Shown in pieces: positions 7,804-12,518 of a stretch of DNA of 64,000 nt. The first letter of the stretch is position 1. Each line of letters starts with the position of its first letter. The DNA comes from Bizionia sp. M204 (GTDB lineage Bacteria; Bacteroidota; Bacteroidia; Flavobacteriales; Flavobacteriaceae), in the NCBI RefSeq assembly GCF_023205095.1, contig NZ_CP046242.1, forward strand, positions 212,501 through 276,500. Reading direction: 5' to 3'. Made by a program: the position numbers and the translations under genes. The notes under the pieces are model-generated. The model did not search any database and was not told where the DNA came from. It was given only the letters and a program-made list of their open reading frames with translations.

Positions 7804-8700
7804 ATGAAATATTTAGAGACCAAACACGAACGGAATTCTGCCAAGATTACGACTTTAATAATCGTTATTTTGGTATTGCTGTTGTTTGTAGTGGGACCTC
7901 CATATATGGATCCACCGGAAGAATATGGCGTAGCTGTTAATTTTGGGAATTCAGATGTTGGCAGCGGAAACGTACAGCCAAAAGAACCTGTTAAATCCGA
8001 ACCAAAAAACATAGAGCGTCCTCCGGAAGAAGCGGTAACAAAACCTCAAGAAACAAAACCAGAAGCGGCTGCTGCTGAAAAAACAAAAGCGGAAGATGTT
8101 ATCACACAGAATAACGAAGAAGCATTAGCAATAGAAAAGAAAAAACAAGCCGACGCTAAAGCGAAAAAAATTGCAGATGCAAAAGCAAAAGCGCAAGCAG
8201 AAGCGGATGCCAAGGCAAAAGCGGAAGCCGAACAAAAAGCGAAAGAGCAGGCAGAGAAAGAGGCTAAAAAGAAAAAGCTAGACGCTTTAATTGGAGGCGT
8301 AAGTAAATCGGAAGGCACCACATCTGGTGGCGAAGGGGATGACAACAAACCGGGTGATAAAGGCCAATTAGATGGCAATCCGTATGCCACCAGCTATTTT
8401 GGCAATCCAGGTTCTGGTAGCGGAGGTGTAGGCTATGGTTTAAACGGACGAGGAAAGGCAACGTATCAAAAATTAAATCAAGATTGTAATGAGTCTGGAA
8501 GGGTTGTAGTTCGCATAGTGGTAAACCGAGAAGGTAATGTCATAGAAGCCAATCCAGGCGTTAAAGGCACGAATAATACGGCTAAATGTCTTCTGGAGCC
8601 AGCAAAAAAAATAGCTTTATCTCACAAATGGCGGCCAGATAGCAATGCGCCAGCAGCGCAAGTAGGATTTGTTGAAGTTAACTTCACTATAGGTCAATAA
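7804..8700 (+). CDS. tonB: Energy transducer TonB
   Basis: Carries energy from ExbBD to outer-membrane receptors. The 298 residues have a transmembrane anchor near 15-34 (TLIIVILVLLLFVVG), a Pro/Glu/Lys segment, then a long Ala/Lys/Glu-rich stretch at about 75-160 that should span the periplasm as an extended or coiled rod. After a Gly-rich hinge comes a TonB C-terminal-like domain (VVVRIVVNREGNVIE to the end). The rod resembles TolA in composition, so a TolA-like name is possible, but the C-terminal domain and gene order fit TonB. Confidence 0.85.
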   Translation: MKYLETKHERNSAKITTLIIVILVLLLFVVGPPYMDPPEEYGVAVNFGNSDVGSGNVQPKEPVKSEPKNIERPPEEAVTKPQETKPEAAAAEKTKAEDVITQNNEEALAIEKKKQADAKAKKIADAKAKAQAEADAKAKAEAEQKAKEQAEKEAKKKKLDALIGGVSKSEGTTSGGEGDDNKPGDKGQLDGNPYATSYFGNPGSGSGGVGYGLNGRGKATYQKLNQDCNESGRVVVRIVVNREGNVIEANPGVKGTNNTAKCLLEPAKKIALSHKWRPDSNAPAAQVGFVEVNFTIGQ

Positions 8701-9984: not shown

Positions 9985-10059
9985 GGGCGATTAGCTCAGT
10001 TGGTTCAGAGCACCTCGTTTACACCGAGGGGGTCGGGGGTTCGAATCCCTCATCGCCCA
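9985..10059 (+). tRNA. tRNA-Val (anticodon TAC)
   Basis: A full cloverleaf of 75 nt: acceptor GGGCGAT pairs with ATCGCCC, the D arm has AGTTGG, the anticodon stem CCTCG/CGAGG encloses loop TTTACAC with TAC at 10020-10022, and the T arm holds TTCGAAT. The discriminator is A; no CCA is encoded. It reads GUA and, by wobble, other valine codons. Confidence 0.96.
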
Positions 10060-10066
10060 CAAAAAG

Positions 10067-10101: not shown

Positions 10102-10176
10102 GGGTCATTAACTCAGTTGGTTCAGAGTGTCACGTCGACAACGTGGAAGTCACTGGTTCGAATCCAGTATGACCCA
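10102..10176 (+). tRNA. tRNA-Val (anticodon GAC) with C33
   Basis: A 75-nt cloverleaf aligned base for base with the first tRNA: acceptor GGGTCAT/ATGACCC, D arm AGTTGG, anticodon stem TCACG/CGTGG (one T-G pair at the outer end), loop TCGACAA and T loop TTCGAAT. The anticodon GAC (10137-10139) reads GUC/GUU valine codons. Position 33 (base 10136) is C where tRNAs almost always have U. All stems pair, so it does not look decayed, but full activity is uncertain. Confidence 0.88.
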
Positions 10177-10185
10177 CATCAAGCG

Positions 10186-10214
10186 AAAATCTGCATGGAA
10201 ATGCAGATTTTTTT
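10186..10214 (+). terminator. Rho-independent terminator after the second tRNA
   Basis: An 11-bp perfect stem (AAAATCTGCAT with its complement, loop GGAA) is followed by three further T. It closes the tRNA unit just before the tandem repeat array begins. Confidence 0.85.
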
Positions 10215-10230
10215 ATTTCACAAAACCCGC

Positions 10231-11184
10231 AAAGCTCGCTTTAAAGGGGTTTGTGAAATAAAAAAAGCTAGAATGCGTGAGCATACCGATGTACATTTGC
10301 AGGAGTGTGTTTATTCTGGATCAATGGAATTAATCCAAGAGCTTTAAGGTTAGACCTAACAGGTTTTAAAAACCTTTTAGGTCTTTTATAAAGCTCGCTT
10401 TAAAGGGGTTTGTGAAATAAAAAAAGCTAGAATGCGTGAGCATTCAGATGTACATTTGCGGTAGTAGGTTTATTCTGGATCAATGGAATTAATCCAAGAG
10501 CTTTAAGGTTAGACCTAACAGGTTTTAAAAACCTTTTAGGTCTTTTATAAAGCTCGCTTTAAAGGGGTTTGTGAAATAAAAAAAGCTAGAATGCGAGAGC
10601 ATTCAGATTTACATTTGCAGGAGTGTGTTTATTCTGAATCAATGGAATTAATCCAAGAGCCTTAAGGTTAGACCTAACAGGTTTTAAAAACCTTTTAGGT
10701 CTTTTATAAAGTTCGCCTTAAAGGGGTTTGTGAAATAAAAAAAGCTAGAATGCGTGAGCATACCGATGTACATTTGCAGGAGTGTGTTTATTCCGGATCA
10801 ATGGAATTAATCCAAGAGCCTTAAGGTTAGACCTAACAGGTATTTAAAACCTTTTAGGTCTTTTATAAAGCTCGCTTTAAAGGGGTTTGTGAAATAAAAA
10901 AAGCTAGAATGCGTGAGCATTCAGATTTACATTTGCAGGAGTGTGTTTATTCTGGATCAATGGAATTAATCCAAGAGCCTTAAGGTTAGACCTAACAGGT
11001 TTTAAAAACCTGTTAGGTCTTTTATAAAGCTCGCCTTAAAGGGGTTTGTGAAATAAAAAAGCTAGAATGCGTGAGCATACCGATGTACATTTGCGGTAGT
11101 AGGTTTATTCTGGATCCATGGAATTAATCCAAGAGCAGTAAGGTTTAACCTATCAAATTTTTAAAACTTGTTAGGTTATACATC
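10231..11184. repeat. Six tandem 159-bp repeats, candidate small-RNA array
   Basis: Units start at 10231, 10390, 10549, 10708, 10867 and 11026, so the period is exactly 159 bp. The sixth unit has lost one A and decays after about 11178. Each unit begins AAAGCTCGCTTTAAAGGGG (or a one- or two-base variant), then has TACATTTG (a perfect -7 type box), a small hairpin TGGATCAAT/ATTAATCCA and a large hairpin of two 16-nt arms starting AGACCTAACAGG, ended by TTTT. No protein gene covers this 1 kb stretch between the tRNA terminator and the end of murF. A short frame beginning MREHTDVH recurs, but it is stopped early in units 2 and 6. The copies differ by only a few bases, with variants shared between non-adjacent units, which suggests recent duplication or conversion. 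Confidence 0.93.
10352..10384 (+). terminator. Large hairpin of repeat unit 1 (recurs every 159 bp)
   Basis: Two 16-nt arms pair with one C-T mismatch and are followed by a short T run. The same element lies at about 10511, 10670, 10829, 10988 (perfect pairing there) and 11146 (diverged but still pairing). It may act as a terminator or as the folded body of an RNA. Confidence 0.6.
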
Positions 11185-11231
11185 GTAAATGGTGTTTAGG
11201 ATTTGGTTTAAAAATAAATTCAATTCTGATC

Positions 11232-12518
11232 TTAATCTAGTAATTCCAATACACGCTCCAAAGCCATGCCTCTAGAGCCTTTTATTATTACTAGTGCATT
11301 GTTTAGCGTTTCTACATTGAAAGTCTCTTTAAAAGCTTGAAATGATTTGTGAAAGGTTATTTTTGAATCAGTACTTGTAGCTTTGTAGAAATTTTCACCT
11401 AAAAAGAAGACTTTATCAATTTGAAGTGTGCCGGCTAAATTGACAATTGCTTGATGTTCCTTTTCAGCGTCAGGTCCTAATTCAAACATGTCACCCAAAA
11501 TGGCAATTTTATGAGGATGTTCTTGTTTTGAAAAATGCTCCAATGCAACCATCATACTAGAAGGATTAGCATTGTAAGCGTCTAAAATTATGCGGGTTGT
11601 TCCTTTGGTGATAATTTGTGAACGATTATTAGTTGGAATATAATTCTCAATGGCTTTTTGAATATCAGAATCATCGACTTCAAAATAATTTCCTATAGTA
11701 ATAGCGGCAGCTATATTATTAAAATTATAAGCTCCAATTAAGTTACTAGTAATAGTTTGGTCATGATACGATAAACTAACAAAAGGTTTAGCATCTAAAA
11801 ACTGAATGTGTAATTGATTTTTGTTATCGGAAGGGCCAAAAGGGATTGTTTTAGCATTTTTGGTTTTATCTACTTGAATCGTATCTGCTGAGTTAATAAA
11901 TATTGATTTATTATGTGATATCAAATACTTATACAATTCACTTTTACCGATTATAACACCTTCAACGCCTCCAAACCCCTCTAAATGCGCTTTTCCAAAA
12001 TTGGTGATATAGCCGTAATCTGGTTTTGAAATATGGCATAAAAAGGCAATTTCCTTTTGGTGATTTGCACCCATTTCAACCACACCTATTTCAGTCGCTT
12101 TGGTCATGGACAAAAGTGTTAATGGCACGCCAATATGATTATTTAAATTACCGATAGTAGCCGTTGTTCTAAATTTTTTGGAAAGCACAGCATGAATCAA
12201 CTCTTTTGTCGTTGTTTTTCCGTTGCTACCGGTGAGTGAAATAATAGGAATCCCTAAATAGTCCCGATGGAAAGTGGCAAGTTTTTGTAAGGTTTCTAAT
12301 ACATCCTGTACGAGAATGGTTTGATGGTTTTGGAAAAATTTAGGATTATCAATAACAACGTATTTAGCCCCATTTTCAAGGGCTTGTTTGGCAAAGCTAT
12401 TACCATCAAAATTATCGCCTTTGAGCGCAAAAAATAGGCATTCTTGAGTGATTTTTCGCGTATCTGTACAAACGCTTTTGCATTCTAAAAAACGTTTATG
12501 AAGGGTATGTAGTTCCAT
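11232..12518 (-). CDS. murF: UDP-MurNAc-tripeptide--D-Ala-D-Ala ligase
   Basis: Adds D-Ala-D-Ala to the peptidoglycan precursor in the cytoplasm, using ATP. The 428 residues show the Mur-ligase P-loop LTGSNGKTTTKELIHAVL (about 94-111), GNLNNHIGVPLTLL, the metal-site region EMGANHQKEI, and in the C-terminal domain DAYNANPSSM and AILGDMFELG. Length is typical. It lies downstream of gldJ on the same strand, separated by a strong terminator, so it probably has its own promoter in the 67-bp gap. Confidence 0.95.
   Translation of the reverse strand: MELHTLHKRFLECKSVCTDTRKITQECLFFALKGDNFDGNSFAKQALENGAKYVVIDNPKFFQNHQTILVQDVLETLQKLATFHRDYLGIPIISLTGSNGKTTTKELIHAVLSKKFRTTATIGNLNNHIGVPLTLLSMTKATEIGVVEMGANHQKEIAFLCHISKPDYGYITNFGKAHLEGFGGVEGVIIGKSELYKYLISHNKSIFINSADTIQVDKTKNAKTIPFGPSDNKNQLHIQFLDAKPFVSLSYHDQTITSNLIGAYNFNNIAAAITIGNYFEVDDSDIQKAIENYIPTNNRSQIITKGTTRIILDAYNANPSSMMVALEHFSKQEHPHKIAILGDMFELGPDAEKEHQAIVNLAGTLQIDKVFFLGENFYKATSTDSKITFHKSFQAFKETFNVETLNNALVIIKGSRGMALERVLELLD

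Follow-up and report, generated by a model that had tools for sequence, protein, structure and literature searches.

The array of repeats behind the tRNA-Val genes of Bizionia sp. M204 probably arose when the distal part of a small element without genes, one that inserts at tRNA and tmRNA 3′ ends, was amplified in tandem. The array (locus L001) lies in a 64,000-nucleotide stretch of this genome, here called the window. The genome itself (G000) is a single contig of 3,362,199 bases. The family-wide repeat to which the array belongs is, as far as we have searched, new and undescribed.

Tandem Repeats Finder placed the array at positions 10231–11176 of the window, with a period of 159, 6.0 copies, 93% matches, 0% indels and a score of 1619. 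On the basis of this output and of unit comparison, the units on the plus strand are 10231–10389 (unit 1), 10390–10548 (unit 2), 10549–10707 (unit 3), 10708–10866 (unit 4), 10867–11025 (unit 5) and 11026–11184 (unit 6). In a gapless comparison, units 1–5 differ pairwise at 3 to 12 of 159 positions, and 16 columns are variable. Unit 6 is one A short and has diverged distally. The non-adjacent units 2 and 6 share the variant CGGTAGTAGG, which is also present in unit 2 of the three-unit array of Bizionia algoritergicola (G003). Upstream lie tRNA-Val(tac) (9985–10060) and tRNA-Val(gac) (10102–10177), both called by ARAGORN; beyond the array lies murF, on the minus strand at 11232–12518. No reading frame is open across the units; a frame of 76 aa (10117–10347) overlaps part of unit 1. 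The original prediction had described six near-identical units of this period and these starts, with a decaying sixth, a variant common to non-adjacent units and no protein gene, at a discrete locus between the tRNA-Val pair and the end of murF, and all of this was borne out. A decayed protein gene was considered and rejected: frames within single units look protein-like, but their stops vary among units and species. Phage origin was likewise rejected, as 10180–11240 had no match in 50,697 phage records. Elsewhere in the window, a 30-bp repeat in an Ala/Lys-rich coding region (8176–8232) is an ordinary low-complexity protein stretch.

Read 5′ to 3′, the element consists of a left end at the tRNA (often ATCA-), the terminator T1, the long hairpin H2, the small hairpin H3, a core motif and the hairpin S2. 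The family consensus of the core motif, from 60 loci, is TATTTGCAgnaGtGg. In the window, all of these parts are on the plus strand. The left end ATCAAGC (10178–10184) abuts tRNA-Val(gac), the occupied tRNA, which was also matched by Rfam RF00005 and whose T-arm CTGGTTCGAATCCAG is resembled by S2. T1, the intrinsic terminator of the tRNA (AATCTGCATGGAAATGCAGATTTTTTT), follows at 10188–10214. H2 spans 10205–10269, with its left arm at 10205–10228 and its right arm at 10246–10269. In unit 1, H3 (GAATGCGTGAGCATAC, aligned in all units) is at 10271–10286, the core motif TACATTTGCAGGAGTG at 10292–10307 and S2 (CTGGATCAATGGAATTAATCCAA) at 10316–10338. Units 2–6 are partial copies: they lack the H2 left arm and the end next to the tRNA, which unit 1 alone has.

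Each 159-bp unit has also incorporated a separate terminator-like palindrome, AGACCTAACAGGTTTTAAAAACCTTTTAGGTCT (10352–10384 in unit 1, with no strand assigned), which is dispersed in this genome and in others. The stem sequence of this 33-bp palindrome (AGACCTAACAGG...CCTGTTAGGTCT) is conserved, more so than an ordinary terminator needs. Its sites in the M204 genome include G000:C1:664705, 277131, 2740096, 3326295, 668827 and 1203116, and it occurs in other genera and in other families of the order.

Relatives of the unit were sought in other Flavobacteriaceae genomes, as had been proposed together with the scoring of their positions relative to tRNA genes. A first model, R1, built from 14 Bizionia units, found matches in 13 of 149 family genomes, and 11 of these 13 belong to other genera; several matches were tandem, with quite different spacings. 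A covariance model of the element core, R2 (21 rows, mostly tRNA-Val loci), matched 112 of 397 Flavobacteriaceae genomes (97 of the 330 of good quality), representing 83 of 237 genera. Because R1 came from Bizionia only and the rows of R2 are dominated by tRNA-Val loci, tRNA-Val may be over-represented. In a phylum sample R2 matched 10 of 296 genomes and in an order sample 11 of 246, with eight of the matching genomes in Flavobacteriaceae each time; both samples are rich in one genus (g146), with 0 matches among its listed genomes. Within the window, the best R2 match (96.6 bits) is unit 5. The M204 genome has two element sites, the Val array and one copy behind tRNA-Tyr (G000:C1:31572–31650), which is the seventh R2 match of the genome and is followed by two more S2-like hairpins. 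The locus is discrete, non-coding, tRNA-linked and shaped by duplication or exchange, as had been proposed, but that description was incomplete: the element is specific neither to this locus nor to tRNA-Val. The statement that no catalogued system matches held up. At gathering score, Rfam 15 reported only tRNA in the window and only tRNA/tmRNA at 20 further loci, and a description of the element was not found in the openly licensed literature searched. Sub-threshold Rfam matches in the window, apart from the two tRNAs, fell below gathering scores and were taken as chance.

The locus set comprises 185 R2 matches in 106 loci; the weakest rows, chance-looking minus-strand rows and loci fetched twice were omitted, as were two of the three L058 units and most G018 units. 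At 75 of the 106 loci, a tRNA or tmRNA on the same strand ends 73–93 bp before the match. The median distance is 82 bp over 76 rows, from which L184 (at a contig edge) was dropped and to which the window locus was added. The genes occupied in these 76 are Val(gac) 33, Val(tac) 15, Arg 9, Ser 6, Pro 5, Ala 3, tmRNA 3 and Tyr 2. Trailers beginning with ATCA follow 48 of the 76 occupied tRNAs versus 1 of 37 unoccupied tRNAs of the same loci; the trailers of the other 36 begin otherwise. Complete units measure 162–180 bp (10 loci), which is too short for an integrase gene.

At a further 13 loci the tRNA lies 193–966 bp from the match. Ten of these were inspected, and eight have an earlier cassette, ending in a tRNA/tmRNA 3′-end copy. 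The other two have an interrupted tRNA-Val(gac) copy (L130) and another array with a GIY-YIG frame (L163). The remaining 18 loci had no called tRNA; by eye, 12 of them have a tRNA/tmRNA 3′-end piece just upstream, L215 and L233 have no tRNA piece, and four are at or near contig edges. At L130, the tRNA-Val(gac)-like sequence 5′ of the element carries a palindromic insertion, TCCCGATAGCTATCGGGA, in its D-loop and was not called by ARAGORN. The further array at L163 is a tandem array with GGATGCAGATCC hairpins behind the tmRNA, before the GIY-YIG frame; it is not among the R2 matches and by eye resembles the element in reverse orientation. Genomes G013 and G174 have identical contig sequence around L102/L106, and one of them may be contaminated.

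The hairpin S2 at the far end of the element resembles the T-arm of the tRNA in front of it. The tRNA T-arm reads NNGG-TTC-G-AAT-CCNN, and positions are given in tRNA numbering. S2 has the form NNGG-ATC-[insert]-AAT-CCNN, with G[AG]TC..AATC in 54 of 74 loci and an insert of 3–15 bases, mostly 8 or 9, in the 55 of 75 loci that fit the pattern. It keeps the stem, T55, C56, A58–T60 and C61, and reads as the T-arm of the upstream tRNA with an insertion at T-loop position 57. Because its loop has a different length from the T-loop and usually another base at T54, S2 is not an exact attachment-site copy. For the S2 tests we used 75 rows, leaving out L060, whose S2 was missed by the pattern; the duplicate pair L134/L188 is still among the 75, and 74 loci are left once duplicates are removed. 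The 3′ arm of S2 agreed with T-stem positions 63–65 of its own tRNA at 128 of 225 sites, compared with 72.8 ± 6.8 when tRNAs were permuted (0 of 20,000). Without tRNA-Val(gac) the agreement was 76 of 129 versus 40.0 (0 of 20,000). These permutation tests carry no correction for relatedness. The 5′ arm gave 111 of 225, a result that is not independent of the 3′-arm test because the 5′ arm was picked by complementarity. The T-arms of five tRNA-Arg loci (L190, L191, L197, L222 and L239) were read one base out of frame, which lowered the score.

At 11 of the 75 loci, a copy of the tRNA 3′ end continues from S2, with 6 or all 7 of the acceptor bases (in 5,000 permutations, a mean of 2.1 loci and a maximum of 7). 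These loci have an intact tRNA at one end and a 3′ fragment at the other, the arrangement of tRNA/tmRNA integrative elements. Such a copy is the footprint that insertion at a tRNA 3′ end leaves. Nine of these loci were inspected. In seven (L143, L146, L182, L199, L200, L204 and L223) the copy is followed by another, host-like trailer, mostly with a terminator-like hairpin, and L183 has no such trailer. At the ninth, L210, as at L115, the trailer behind the copy is element-like (ATCAAGC), which would fit a copy that is part of another cassette. At the other 64 of the 75 loci, the window among them, an acceptor copy cannot be made out. In these 64, agreement between the S2 arm and the T-stem persists at 100 of 192 sites (58.0 permuted; 0 of 20,000), whereas the acceptor zone agrees at 93 of 448 sites, the chance level. 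S2 is thus probably maintained.

Tandem units are frequent in the family. At least 42 of the 106 loci have two or more units, a lower bound because some units of the same arrays (L058, G018) were left out. Spacings were 69–138 bp in 68 of 84 cases, and the others ranged up to 338 bp. Behind the tRNA-adjacent unit, 38 first junctions were available, and a leader of 8 bases or more could be recognised in 21; the other 17 have fewer and are uninformative. In 20 of the 21, at most 40 bases of leader are copied, that is, from the H2 loop or the innermost left arm. What the tandem units repeat is, in most cases, just the H2-loop-to-S2 segment. At L236 the junction AATCCTC also occurs before the first H3, which suggests microhomology. 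The remaining informative junction, at the tRNA-Ser locus L166, copies a whole 177–178-bp unit with the tRNA end and T1.

The L166 array, with its tandem units of tRNA 3′ end plus terminator at a spacing of 177–178 bp, is what would be expected if the arrays were merely local tandem duplications of the tRNA 3′ region, as at tyrT, arising independently in each lineage with no common element. We consider this explanation improbable. The left end, the core motif and the S2 insertion are common to different tRNAs and genera, and separate local duplications would not yield them.

All five other Bizionia genomes examined have the element behind tRNA-Val(gac). Three units are present in B. algoritergicola (G003), two in B. 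myxarmorum (G002), one in B. echini (G001) and one in the MAG UBA5079 (G005); in B. argentinensis (G004) the contig ends within the unit. With 3, 2 and 1 copies at the equivalent site in congeners, the suspicion that the copy number is an assembly artefact becomes unlikely, and six is the count of the assembly. First units are 81–94% identical to unit 1 of the window in local alignments, which run high, and murF DNA is 73–89% identical within the genus. The original prediction of recent duplication or conversion, as opposed to an old relic, fits the expansion to six but would not describe the element itself: its core can be aligned throughout the genus at 81–94%. The 159-bp spacing, like the CGGTAGTAGG variant, is common to the window and B. 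algoritergicola. In B. myxarmorum, the second unit and the stop-codon end of murF overlap (L061, 6478–6555). Origin by duplication of the murF 3′ end was rejected, as this overlap is seen in one species only.

The hairpins of the element differ in their strand bias. In 74 distinct loci, T1 has 27 G·T versus 5 A·C mismatches on the plus strand, as expected for a terminator. H2 has 30 versus 4 (P = 6e-6), H3 has 14 versus 8 with no clear bias, and S2 shows the reverse, 4 versus 50. The S2 bias arises because C56 and A58 are kept, so that an invariant C and A resemble a mismatch. Among six Bizionia sequences, 5 of 21 predicted H2 pairs are changed on both sides with pairing kept (6 of 51 pairs in the whole predicted structure). 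H2 lies past the terminator, and its G·T bias makes it look selected as plus-strand RNA. The 5′ arm of T1 also complements the core within the same locus, with a longest run of 7.72 on average versus 4.71 permuted (0 of 20,000); this pairing shows no strand bias (53 G·T, 44 A·C). A MITE of a known transposon would share terminal inverted repeats with an autonomous partner; what is seen here is this complementarity between the T1 5′ arm and the core, and no autonomous partner was identified.

These features could also be explained by a functional trailer RNA in place of a mobile element, a possible but rather doubtful alternative. Read-through of the tRNA would give a structured RNA (T1, or its 5′ arm paired with the core instead, and H2, H3 and S2); it would regulate tRNA maturation or act as an RNA sponge, with selection on copy number. 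The H2 bias and the T1–core complementarity agree with it, as do the multi-unit loci of many genera and the core of Bizionia, which appears to evolve more slowly than murF. However, units 2–6 have neither T1 nor the left arm of H2, the T1–core pairing is unbiased and the core would be transcribed only after T1. The tRNA 3′-end copies after S2 require a duplication or insertion in any case.

Two other readings of the array were considered. If the units were small RNA genes, each would carry a −7 box and end in a terminator palindrome. The sequence TACATTTG fits the flavobacterial −7 consensus TAnnTTTG (PMC9723704), and units 1–5 of the window end in the palindrome followed by T. We nevertheless rejected this array of promoters as very improbable: the family consensus does not keep the TA of the box, by eye there is no −33 element at the expected distance, and the palindrome is missing from the units of B. 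myxarmorum and UBA5079 and was unseen in the units of other genera that were inspected. The array might instead consist of successive terminators that protect the tRNA genes against transcription arriving from murF, as H3 on the minus strand is followed by T-runs. This we rejected as hardly probable at all. The arrays of L107 and L241 lie between two tRNA-Val genes of the same direction, and neither S2 nor the core is necessary for termination.

Under the preferred explanation, amplification of part of an element inserted at a tRNA end, the insertion would leave the tRNA with an intact 3′ end, followed by the element-borne left end and T1. A copy of the tRNA 3′ end would then stand behind the element, where the T-arm would survive as S2, altered by a small insertion at T-loop position 57. 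The Bizionia element would have stood behind tRNA-Val(gac) before the sampled species split, and the displaced acceptor end would have eroded. The segment from the H2 loop through H3 and core to S2, with the dispersed palindrome, would then have been duplicated, probably before M204 and B. algoritergicola split, as their common spacing and variant indicate. The expansion to six in M204 most likely occurred by unequal exchange. The element presumably moves, or moved, by an enzyme supplied in trans that acts at the T-arm, and its plus-strand transcript, made by tRNA read-through, may fold and be under selection.

As regards such an enzyme, no recombinase could be tied to the element by a PF01797 (Y1_Tnp) search of the M204 genome, which gave 0 matches (control genomes matched in 5 of 14), or through the GIY-YIG genes noticed at a few loci. 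There is no integrase gene in the window units, across which no frame is open, and no room for one in the 162–180-bp units. Within one genome, copies at different tRNAs (19 pairs) show no greater similarity than do copies at different tRNAs in different genomes (0.649 versus 0.635, P = 0.27), and the closest within-genome pairs are Pro/Pro in G030 (0.82) and Arg/Arg in G250 (0.76). This comparison gives no sign of frequent recent movement; recent spread between tRNAs was rejected as unsupported by it, and the spread looks old.

Single-gene GIY-YIG cassettes with tRNA 3′ copies of their own were found at tRNA-Pro (L154), at tRNA-Arg (L216) and inside the tRNA-Ser array L166, and at L163 a GIY-YIG frame directly precedes the core. 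All four frames match PF01541. This suggests, no more, that one entry route is used by cassettes of different kinds. At L178 in the M204 genome (G000:C1:2259197–2259397), a GIY-YIG gene lies just before tRNA-Arg(tcg); in front of the gene is a duplicate of the 5′ portion of this tRNA, which ends at a 20-bp palindrome, CCTGCCTGC..GCAGGCAGG. Upstream of the element at L216, the tRNA-Arg copy behind the GIY-YIG cassette is broken in the anticodon arm by a similar 20-bp palindrome. A bolder reading, which we offer as speculative and rather unlikely, is that the elements might be self-propagating gene-less tRNA-tail cassettes of Flavobacteriaceae, each with a replacement tRNA 3′ end and terminator. 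The locally matched T-arm hairpin, re-formed at the far end, would be the site of recombination or copying. They would be moved in trans, perhaps by the GIY-YIG cassettes and possibly via the folded plus-strand RNA, and their arrays would pile up in the way that cassettes accumulate in arrays in integrons.

The significance of the finding lies in a family-wide repeat whose end hairpin tracks the T-arm of whichever tRNA precedes it. It raises the questions of how a gene-less element of about 175 bp came to lie behind tmRNA and many different tRNA genes, why amplification of its distal part keeps recurring and whether the trailer RNA of occupied tRNAs has a function. With model R2, repeats behind tRNAs that otherwise lack an explanation can be annotated.

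Several known systems share features with the element. The 178-bp repeats of E. coli tyrT, which give rtT RNA, stand in tandem just behind a tRNA at one locus, each with a piece of the tRNA 3′ end. The element likewise forms tandem repeats just behind tRNAs with a tRNA 3′-end piece; a unit containing the tRNA 3′ end was seen at L166 and not in the window. Unlike rtT, which is not known from other loci, the element is found at many tRNAs and in many genera, where it carries a common core motif and a modified T-arm. REP elements of RAYT transposases are imperfect palindromes near gene ends with GTAG or GGAG. The element also has imperfect palindromes near gene ends, and some copies have GTAG or GGAG in the core. 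Identity with REP/RAYT was rejected, as PF01797 is absent from the M204 genome; in addition, the place and orientation of the element are fixed behind tRNAs and its stem tracks the local tRNA. The 3′ external transcribed spacer of E. coli leuZ tRNA acts as a sponge. The putative RNA of the element would similarly come from a tRNA 3′ trailer, but the element differs in anatomy and spread. A further parallel is with genomic islands at tRNA and tmRNA genes. As defined for Islander (PMC4383910), these have an intact gene on one side and a 3′ fragment on the other, and an integrase gene is required by the filter. The element shares with them the intact gene plus 3′ fragment, the same kinds of target and tandem occupancy. 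In contrast to these kilobase-sized islands, it measures 162–180 bp with no room for an integrase, and its copy of the T-arm is altered into S2.
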